DNA of 25,313 nucleotides from a virus: IMG/VR virus record IMGVR_UViG_3300033571_000692, positions 1 through 25,313 of that record. One strand, written 5' to 3'. A model generated the notes under the pieces. It saw only the letters and a program-made list of their open reading frames with translations. It was not told the origin of the DNA and searched no databases. How positions within the stretch are numbered: the first letter of the stretch is position 1; every line of letters starts with the position of its first letter. Made by a program: the position numbers and the translations under genes. Below, piece by piece: positions 19,919 through 22,280 of this stretch.

Positions 19919-20061
19919 TTCTTCTTCGCAGTCTTGGCAGACTCTTTGAACGCCTTGTTGGTAGGCGCACCGGGTGATCCGGGTTTACGCATCTTCTCGC
20001 CAGACCCTGCTTTGATACGGGCGCGTTTGGCGTTGACATTGGCGTACAGACCAGGTTTCAT
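19915..20061 (-). CDS. Small Lys-rich protein, 48 aa
   Basis: A 48-residue, strongly basic protein: [20 protein letters not shown], then [18 protein letters not shown] and a C-terminus KTAKKK. The [11 protein letters not shown] pattern recurs in small late-operon proteins of many phages without a known role. It overlaps both neighbours by four bases (ATGA on each side), which supports it being translated. Its charge and place next to the coat gene suggest packaging with, or binding to, DNA. That is inference. Confidence 0.75.
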
Positions 20062-20222
20062 TTCTTCTTGGGAGCCTTGCCGGGTTTGCCAGCCTTCATG
20101 GCCGCAGTACGAGCAGTGCTAAGAGCAATGGCAATTGCCTGCTTTTGAGGCTTGCCAGACTTCATCTCTTTGCTGATGTTGCTTGAGATGGTTCGTTTTC
20201 CGTAACCTTTGGTCAAAGGCAT
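20058..20222 (-). CDS. Small Lys-rich protein, 54 aa
   Basis: A 54-residue basic protein: [20 protein letters not shown], a helix with [18 protein letters not shown], and a tail [12 protein letters not shown]. The pattern K-G-Y...I..NI..E...GKPQKQA(I/V)AIAL recurs in phage genomes. It starts inside the last codons of the homing endonuclease gene (10-base overlap). Its AAGGAAC site (20227-20233) is encoded within that gene's 3' end. Its stop overlaps the 48-aa start. Function unknown; nucleic acid binding is plausible from charge. Confidence 0.75.
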
Positions 20223-20956
20223 TTCAGTTCCTTGTTCTTACGGCGGGTTTCGCCTGCTTTCTTACGCGCCTCAAGAAACGCAGTACGTTCTTCTTCGGTC
20301 ATGTTGGCGCGTCTGGCTTTAGCTGCCGCCTTACGCTCATCCGACCAAGGGCCTTTCTTCTTACCCTTGGCTGCTGCACTCATTTTAGCGCGGGTTTCTG
20401 CTGTGCGCTCATAAGATGCCAGCTTCTGCTTTGTCTCTTCAGACATTGCATAGCCGTCGGCTTTACGCTTTTCCCAAACTGCTTTTGCAAGAACAGATCT
20501 AGCTGCTCTACGCTCATCAGTCCAAGATGCTTTGAGTCCTTCGGAAACTTTCTTCCTGTATTCGTTGTCTTTCCAGAGTTGAGTAGTAGCCTCAATCCAC
20601 GGGGAGACATCATCGTACTTTCGACCAGTAGCGGCAGCAGCAATCTTGGCTGCTACTTCTGGATTTTTTGAGGGTGCTGTATCGCCACCAAACGACACGT
20701 TGTATCCGTTAGGAGACAAAGTATCTGCCGCAAGAATCGCGGCCTTTTCTGCTGCGTGCAACTCTTCGTGTGTTTCAAACTCAGCAAGAATAGAAACAGA
20801 CGGCTCACCATGTTTACGCCAAGCACAGTGCACAGGAAGCTGACTGTCGGCTTTGACAGACCTCTTGTGCTGAAGTAGACGTAGGTGCATGGATCTTGCC
20901 GTCTGCCCTATGTATGCCTTACCAGACGCAAATACCAGTTTGTAAAGAGTGTACAT
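20213..20956 (-). CDS. Free-standing GIY-YIG homing endonuclease with NUMOD3-like repeats
   Basis: A 247-residue site-specific endonuclease, a selfish element. The GIY-YIG core is at residues 1-92: Y5 in TLYKLV, YIGQT (15-19) after a short loop, R21/R26 and H30 on the next helix, E70 (HAAEKAA) as the metal ligand, and [11 protein letters not shown] (81-91). The rest is Lys/Arg/Ala-rich helices with NUMOD3-like DNA-binding repeats ([30 protein letters not shown]). The frame is open to an ATG at 20986, but that codon has no ribosome binding site. ATG 20956 has AAGGAG six bases upstream and starts right at the catalytic domain, so I choose it. The gene is visibly more AT-rich than its neighbours and sits just after the coat gene, separating it from the small basic genes. 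Confidence 0.88.
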
Positions 20957-20990
20957 ATCATGCTCCTTGCTTTTGACAAAGAGCATGATA
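20956..20990 (-). promoter_or_regulatory. Inverted repeat forming an RNA hairpin over the endonuclease ribosome binding site
   Basis: TATCATGCTC (20956-20965 on +) and GAGCATGATA (20981-20990) are a perfect 10-bp inverted repeat around a 15-base loop. In the late mRNA the 3' arm contains the GAG of the AAGGAG site and its last base is the A of the start codon 20956. Folding would therefore block ribosome access. No T-run follows, so it is not an ordinary terminator. RBS-sequestering hairpins are known for phage homing endonuclease genes such as T4 mobE and I-TevI. Function here is inferred. Confidence 0.65.
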
Positions 20991-21005
20991 GCACAACCGG
21001 TATTA

Positions 21006-22280
21006 TTATGTTTGGCTGAACAAAATTACCCCCGACATCTCGGGTTGTTTATTTACAACACCGTACAGCGTATCGAGACGATACTTGGTGGTCATGGTGT
21101 TGATGTCGTAGAACTTCTGCATGACCAGTTCGATACCCTGATCGGTAGCAGCACGCATCACAGCCACGCCAGCGTCAGCGGGAACCGCATAACGACCGGG
21201 CAGGATCTCGATGGAGTCCTTCTGCCAGAACGGGTTCACATACGCGGAAACCGTGTTCAGGAACACGATGTTCGCGGTTGCGGACGGGGTAACGATCACG
21301 TTCTGGTACTGAGCCTCGGCATCGGTCGCGCCCTGATCGGAGATGATCGGGGGCGAGATCACCATCGTGGTGGCGTTGGTCACGCTGATCACCCGGAAGG
21401 TTTTCAGCAGGCCAGTGTCACTCTTGGTGATGTGATGCACAGCGTTCACACCGGAGATGGTAAAGCAGTCGCCAGCGGCCACGTTGGTGGTGCTGGAAAC
21501 AGTCACGGTCTGGTAGCGGTTATCGACGTTGATCTGACCACCCACCGAGGTGCTGGTAGCACGCGGGGTGTAGTAGTTGTTGGCAGCAGTCAGGGTCGAG
21601 ATGGTGATACCAGTGCCAGCGGCAGCCGCTTTACGGTTGGCGTAGTCGAGTTTGAAAGTATCAAACGACGCCACCATACCGACGTAAGCACGCTCGAAAG
21701 CGTTGTCCGACTTGCGGTTGCCGAAGGAGCGCGACAGACCCTGCAGGTTCGACGCCATGCCGTTGTAGTCACGGGTGGACAGAGCCAGATACCGATCATA
21801 CGAGGGGACGCCTTGCTCGTTCATGATGGCGTCGCACTGAGCAACGTCGTCAAAGCCCGAAGCGGCGGCGGTGCGCTTGACAACCAGAGTGCCTTGGTTG
21901 GCAGCAACGTTCATAACGGCAACGTTGATGTCCGAGGCAAGCTTTTGCTTAGCGGCATCGCCCAGACGACCCTCTTGCAGCGCGTCACGCAGTTCAAGCG
22001 CGTTCAGCGTGAAGGGCACCGACTTGGAAAAGCCGATGGTGGCCGGGACGGCCAACTGGGTCATGTTCTTGTAGGACGACGAGATGTCGGTGCCAGGAGC
22101 AGCAGTGATCGACTCAGCGATGTAAGGCTGGGGACGCCAGATGGTGTTGTTGGTACGCTCCATCATCGTCTGGTCGGTGTTGTAGACGGCGACGTTGCGC
22201 GACAGAACGAGGGCGTCCTGGAAGCCCTCAAGCAGGTTCTCAAATGCAACCCGCTCCTCTTTATTAAATGCGTTAGGCAT
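21006..22280 (-). CDS. Major coat protein, P22 gp5 type (HK97 fold with I-domain)
   Basis: A 424-residue homologue of the P22 coat protein (430 residues). The NTIWRPQ segment (45-51) matches P22 NTIWMPV. LRDALQEGRLGDAAKQKLASD (98-117) covers the region after P22 LRDE. GQINVDNRYQTVTVSSTT (248-265) matches P22 KVNVDNRFATVTLSATT and marks the inserted I-domain (about 224-342). The VNPFWQKDSIEI segment (348-359) matches P22 TNVFWADDAIRI. It forms the icosahedral head. ATG 22280 has AAGGAAC at 22286-22292 inside the end of the scaffold gene. It follows the scaffold gene by two bases, as in P22. Confidence 0.93.
   Translation of the reverse strand: MPNAFNKEERVAFENLLEGFQDALVLSRNVAVYNTDQTMMERTNNTIWRPQPYIAESITAAPGTDISSSYKNMTQLAVPATIGFSKSVPFTLNALELRDALQEGRLGDAAKQKLASDINVAVMNVAANQGTLVVKRTAAASGFDDVAQCDAIMNEQGVPSYDRYLALSTRDYNGMASNLQGLSRSFGNRKSDNAFERAYVGMVASFDTFKLDYANRKAAAAGTGITISTLTAANNYYTPRATSTSVGGQINVDNRYQTVTVSSTTNVAAGDCFTISGVNAVHHITKSDTGLLKTFRVISVTNATTMVISPPIISDQGATDAEAQYQNVIVTPSATANIVFLNTVSAYVNPFWQKDSIEILPGRYAVPADAGVAVMRAATDQGIELVMQKFYDINTMTTKYRLDTLYGVVNKQPEMSGVILFSQT

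Follow-up and report, generated by a model that had tools for sequence, protein, structure and literature searches.

The window, a stretch of 25,313 nucleotides of viral DNA, includes a P22-type coat protein gene, an endonuclease gene and a short third gene in that order on the minus strand, which is the late mRNA strand, with an inverted repeat lying between the coat stop codon and the endonuclease AUG (Table 1). The GIY-YIG domain of the window protein scores slightly below the Pfam cut-off (E 6e-4, 20.5 bits against 22.6), and its NUMOD3 match is above the cut-off for that domain (24 bits against 20.4). Among the relatives, 8 of 15 match Pfam GIY-YIG, with E values as good as 1e-5, and in the family alignment (A1) the YIG motif and single Arg, His and Glu positions are invariant.

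Table 1. Features at the coat–endonuclease junction (window coordinates)
Feature	Position	Strand	Basis
P22-type coat protein gene, 49 nt upstream of endonuclease AUG	21006..22280	-	P22_CoatProtein E 1.9e-88 (Pfam)
Hairpin with lower stem: GUGC 20994-20991 pairs with GUAC 20954-20951, bulged U 20955	20951..20994	-	Fold; compensatory changes in relatives' lower stem
Candidate extended -10 TGCTATCAT, in 5' arm; predicted start about 20976-20979, in loop	20985..20993	-	Motif score, conservation
Core hairpin, 14-15 bp stem, 5-7 nt loop	20956..20990	-	Sequence, fold, conservation in relatives
Shine-Dalgarno (SD) AAGGAG, wholly in 3' arm; spacer to AUG 6 nt	20963..20968	-	Sequence, fold
Endonuclease start codon AUG; its A closes the core stem	20954..20956	-	Fold; loop stops in relatives
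Free-standing homing-type endonuclease, GIY-YIG and NUMOD3, 247 aa	20213..20956	-	Pfam, family alignment
Next gene, 54 aa, no Pfam match; ATG within endonuclease 3' end	20058..20222	-	Similarity to L003 resumes at 20222

The coat gene has many relatives among viral contigs, and one of these, L003, shares 96% DNA identity with the window (the coat protein is 100% identical over the residues matched) and lacks the endonuclease gene, so that presence and absence at one site can be compared between close relatives. The distance from the coat stop to the next ATG is 60 nt in L003 versus 783 nt in the window. Because similarity ends at the coat stop codon and picks up at the ATG of the next gene, the endonuclease gene and the hairpin jointly replace the whole intergenic region, including a terminator-like hairpin. 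On this comparison of sequences, the gene, which encodes a homing-type GIY-YIG endonuclease, is a mobile, free-standing insertion behind the coat gene. The 60-nt stretch of L003 contains a GC-rich hairpin, and nearly all of the insert-free relatives (L003-L081) have a short GC-rich, often tetraloop, terminator-like hairpin after the coat stop, which is missing from both endonuclease-bearing loci among the coat loci examined (L002 and L064). Descent of the hairpin studied here from the coat terminator was ruled out, because the hairpins of insert-free loci are rich in GC and their sequences are unrelated to it.

Further features of the insert were noted. At its 3' end the endonuclease gene overlaps the start of the next gene and also holds what is likely the SD of that gene (AAGGAA; window 20213-20232). 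The 3' arm of the hairpin may possibly derive from the SD region of the next gene (AGGAGCATGAGATG in L004, AGGAGCGTGATATG in L014), the match being too short to distinguish from chance. Many members (L082-L206; window 21005-20995) have a AGGATAATACC-like element after the coat stop and before the hairpin, even where the stems differ. A single-sequence search of the genome collection gave no relative, and a profile search of the same collection gave one weak match (31%, L263). Among isolated phages, only two Xanthomonas phages match, at about 31-33% identity; in these (PhiXhv-7, L264:2415-2492, and PhiXhv-2, L265) the distant endonuclease genes lie directly behind the major head gene, and in L264 a strong GC-rich hairpin is predicted just before the annotated TTG start.

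The hairpin over the endonuclease start

The initial annotation described a perfect 10-bp hairpin with a 15-base loop. Its two arms, TATCATGCTC (20956-20965) and GAGCATGATA (20981-20990), are indeed present at those positions, 15 nt apart, and the hairpin is real, but the stem is longer than was described. TATCATGCTCCTTG and CAAAGAGCATGATA form 14 pairs round a 7-nt loop (93% complementary), a 15th pair was added to this core by the folding program, and an outer GUGC/GUAC helix lies beyond the core, past a one-base bulge. Similarly, the SD had been correctly recognized as buried in the 3' arm, but all of AAGGAG rather than part of it is inside the stem, and its computed unpaired probability in the full transcript is 0.00. 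The A of the AUG (20956) pairs with U 20990 as the last pair of the core, as had been proposed.

The predicted fold of 20930-21020 (minus strand) has an energy of -35.4 kcal/mol, compared to -14.8 +/- 3.2 for shuffled versions (z -6.4, n=200), and none of the 200 shuffles was as stable. Apart from this hairpin, the window has just one inverted repeat of 10 nt or longer within 40 nt, and that is a self-overlapping palindrome. However, the hairpin ranks 7th in energy among 5056 forty-base windows; hence, it is position and conservation, not stability alone, that mark it out. A search of Rfam gave no match anywhere in the window.

Translation from an ATG at 20986 was also considered and ruled out because in many relatives the loop ends this frame with a stop codon (ATG CTC TTG AGT TAA) and there is no SD at that position, which upholds the original choice of 20956 as the start.

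Conservation of the buried start

Relatives down to 47% identity were reached using a 15-member protein profile, the hairpin not being used as a criterion. In the members checked, the gene lies 45-69 nt after a P22-type coat gene, the coat proteins being 44-99% identical. The start region is buried in all 27 members analysed, i.e. the window and 26 of 26 others, the distant ones having been found by protein rather than by hairpin. At the SD, the mean unpaired probability is 0.05 in the 27 members, whereas 174 other genes from these contigs average 0.48 (Mann-Whitney p 3e-15, a value that ignores kinship and overstates independence because the members are related). A stronger point than the p-values is that different stems appear to bury the same start. 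The start is still buried in distant members (47-70% protein identity; z -3.8 to -7.8), several of which have different stems, and in L177/L206, L178, L179, L180, L181 and L182 the stem letters are wholly different, with the stem again ending at or enclosing the start codon. No relative without the inverted repeat, which the initial annotation had named as grounds for abandoning the idea, was found among these members; the stem is imperfect in L176, L170 retains the stem with a mutated SD, and L181 lacks a clear SD.

Changes on both sides of a pair were also found, as would be expected of a conserved RNA helix. Across 19 close loci an 18-pair helix is 97.7% paired, and it includes four two-sided changes, compared to 0-1 in slid versions, a number matched by none of 500 shuffles. 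Examples are U-A to C-G in L172, C-G to A-U in L173 and G-C to A-U in L124. The double change in L172 is recent, since this locus is nested in the closer group on the tree. Some of the 19 loci were first found by hairpin pattern, and L158, L170, L172 and L173 by protein only. The hairpin-pattern search gave 29 loci, 25 of which have the endonuclease gene right behind the hairpin (some cut at the contig end), the remaining four being one deleted gene and three unrelated chance matches. A buried start is not a generic feature of GIY-YIG genes, an explanation that was rejected because most of the unrelated GIY-YIG genes found in passing are open at the start. In one such unrelated gene (L225:435-549), a GGAG is in a stem shortly before the ATG, with an SD unpaired probability of 0.10.

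The spacing bears on whether ribosomes that finish the coat gene might open the hairpin and start again on the endonuclease. In all members just 45-69 nt separate the coat stop from the start downstream, which would favour such coupling, but in most members the core stem begins about 20-25 nt past the stop, farther than a terminating ribosome is generally understood to reach, and the half that includes the SD would presumably stay closed. Hence, we regard translational coupling as very improbable.

A second explanation is that the hairpin serves mainly as the 3' end of the coat mRNA, as a terminator or an exonuclease barrier, its overlap with the endonuclease start being secondary. This would fit the presence of a hairpin just after the coat gene in nearly all insert-free relatives and its disappearance from insert-bearing ones. 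It would also fit L140 (2945-3045), where the hairpin is intact and the endonuclease is cut to four codons (ATG TAC ATT CTC TAA) before the next gene. As the hairpin has outlived the gene in this one case, the stem may have another use, and sequestration of the start does not explain the L140 hairpin unless the gene was lost recently or the coat mRNA also makes use of the stem. However, the hairpins of insert-free loci are rich in GC, mostly lie clear of the next SD and often have a T-rich tail, whereas those of the inserts are AT-rich, take in the SD, have the start codon at their edge or inside them and are not followed by a T run. A primary role at the coat 3' end therefore seems unlikely.

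Frozen stem letters and a candidate internal promoter

Among the 19 close loci, pairs sharing <75% protein identity are 94% identical in the arms, 57% in the loop and 40% at four-fold sites, and for pairs sharing <66% the corresponding values are 92, 50 and 31%, synonymous sites being saturated. The arm values are somewhat inflated by the hairpin-pattern search; in the four members found by protein only, the arms are 83-96% identical to those in the window. Pairing alone would permit drift with compensation and so leaves the frozen letters unexplained.

Conservation of letters in both arms beyond what pairing demands could indicate that the repeat acts as DNA, as an operator or as a site bound by the endonuclease itself or by another dimeric protein, and autorepression by I-TevI is known (PMC2988022). 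However, distant members exchange the whole sequence and keep the pairing and the position over the start, G-U pairs are tolerated, as fits RNA, and further copies of the half-site in the window are no more numerous than chance would give. A DNA site is accordingly an improbable reading.

An extended -10-like element, TGnTATCAT, is found in the lower half of the 5' arm in 17 of the 19 close loci, and a transcript initiated from it is predicted to begin in the loop, 20-22 nt before the AUG. Few if any of 167 control gene starts score as high as this element. The window element has the top score, with p 0.026 against composition-matched shuffles, and p values of 0.01-0.04 were obtained in some members only; these scores depend on the base frequencies assumed for the -10. 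TATAAT is at the equivalent place in L176 and L180, both of which have other stems. The match is poor in L179, L181 and L182, and position -9 is C in 19 of 19 loci where the consensus has A. A promoter scan gave no promoter and no -35 is evident, and a sigma-70 promoter with a -35 was therefore dropped. The motif TATAAATA, which we take to be the T4-type late promoter consensus, is absent from the window hairpin and, in the family, from the 45 nt that precede the start.

The initial annotation had suggested that a transcript starting inside the hairpin could be active, and the placement of the promoter-like element agrees with this. Without the 5' arm, as in a transcript started in the loop, the computed openness of the SD over all members rises from 0.05 to 0.41, near that of ordinary genes. 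Whether the 5' arm doubles as an internal host-type extended -10 promoter is, in our estimate, an even question. Double coding, with the -10 in the lower 5' arm and the SD in the upper 3' arm, would be a simple account of the frozen stem, because one side of each pair would then be fixed by one or the other.

Nearly as plausible is that the hairpin merely cuts translation from the late mRNA to a tolerable leak, TATCAT being a by-product of pairing and not a promoter. The hairpins of L179, L181 and L182 without a good -10, and a -35 seen nowhere, would be expected if this were so. It does not explain why the stem letters are near-frozen despite saturated synonymous sites, why G11 of the TG motif is fixed while its partner varies freely between C and U, or why two other stems have TATAAT in the equivalent position. 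P22-type phages are not known to make a late sigma factor of their own, and hence the internal promoter, if used, should be of host type. The timing may then be the reverse of that in T4, early and low rather than late.

A proposed translational lock and its counterparts

We propose that the hairpin acts as a translational lock and moves together with the mobile GIY-YIG gene behind the coat gene, and put the probability of this at roughly 0.8. It is based on computed evidence: the fold, its conservation, compensatory changes, a fixed geometry and the pair of occupied and empty sites. Sequestration of the SD and start is strongly supported, and we infer that it leads to translational repression in the cell. 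On read-through transcripts of the coat gene, pairing of the 5' arm with the SD, the spacer and the first base of the start codon would keep 30S subunits off, so that the abundant coat message would yield little endonuclease. A short transcript begun in the loop would lack the 5' arm and expose the SD. The strong late message would thus probably make little endonuclease unless such a transcript starts inside the hairpin, and the protein would be made from its own weak promoter rather than from the late operon. A more elaborate version, which we hold only tentatively, is a convergent lock and key in a non-T4 group, in which a single 14-bp stem would be both host-type -10 and SD, the strong late operon would be prevented from yielding endonuclease, a constitutive short transcript would act early and weakly, the reverse of T4, and double coding would freeze the stem.

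A conserved, compensated and repeatedly re-sequenced hairpin in P22-type phages would extend such control beyond the T4-like phages of the literature searched. It suggests that selfish genes in heavily transcribed phage regions tend to gain the same solution, and with two groups using different promoter types, the usefulness of a homing endonuclease early versus late becomes testable.

A second GIY-YIG family, in T4-like cyanophage contigs (L228-L247, e.g. L228:715-805; also L091-L118), has a 17-bp hairpin abutting the AUG, with double compensatory changes at four pairs. No SD is visible at these hairpin loci. TATAAATA is in the loop at 20 of 20 loci (8 distinct sequences), these being among 22 occurrences on that strand in 79 kb. 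Because the loop motif is the presumed T4-type late promoter consensus, this seems to be the T4 design in a different family of homing genes. A photosystem II D1-like gene, read by eye, is near the gene in L099. In another GIY-YIG gene (L259:1914-2013), TATAAATA lies 28 nt before the ATG and AAAGGGG is in the 3' arm of a stem.

RBS-sequestering hairpins combined with a bypass promoter have been described for I-TevI, I-TevII, I-TevIII and segB of T4 and for mobE of Aeh1 (PMC2988022, PMC3014915). For homing genes outside the T4-like phages, no such hairpin was found in the literature searched, which consisted largely of open-access papers. I-TevI is likewise a GIY-YIG enzyme whose SD and AUG are in a hairpin on read-through transcripts, and the transcript from its own promoter cannot form that hairpin (PMC2988022, PMC3014915), the candidate promoter here being similarly placed. 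The published T4 I-TevI sequence, the experimentally studied case, folded similarly in our analysis. However, I-TevI is encoded within an intron and expressed from a phage late promoter, whereas the gene described here is free-standing behind the coat gene with a candidate host-type extended -10, and the two stems are unrelated in sequence. The homing genes mobE of Aeromonas phage Aeh1 and segB of T4 are also free-standing with a hairpin-sequestered RBS (PMC2988022, PMC3014915), but mobE is an HNH gene flanked by ribonucleotide reductase genes, segB has tRNA genes around it, and both are in T4-like phages. A stable hairpin is also present just upstream of the segD-like homing gene seg43(25) of Aeromonas phage 25 (PMC2988022), where it leaves the RBS uncovered, while the hairpin here covers it. 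The T4 genes e, soc and 49 have the start region in an RNA helix, gene e on long transcripts (PMC3014915), but, unlike the endonuclease gene, they are not mobile. Since stem sequence and promoter type are unrelated, the P22-type case appears to be independent of the T4 homing genes; it shares with them the proposed lock and possibly the bypass, and differs in position, stem and promoter type.
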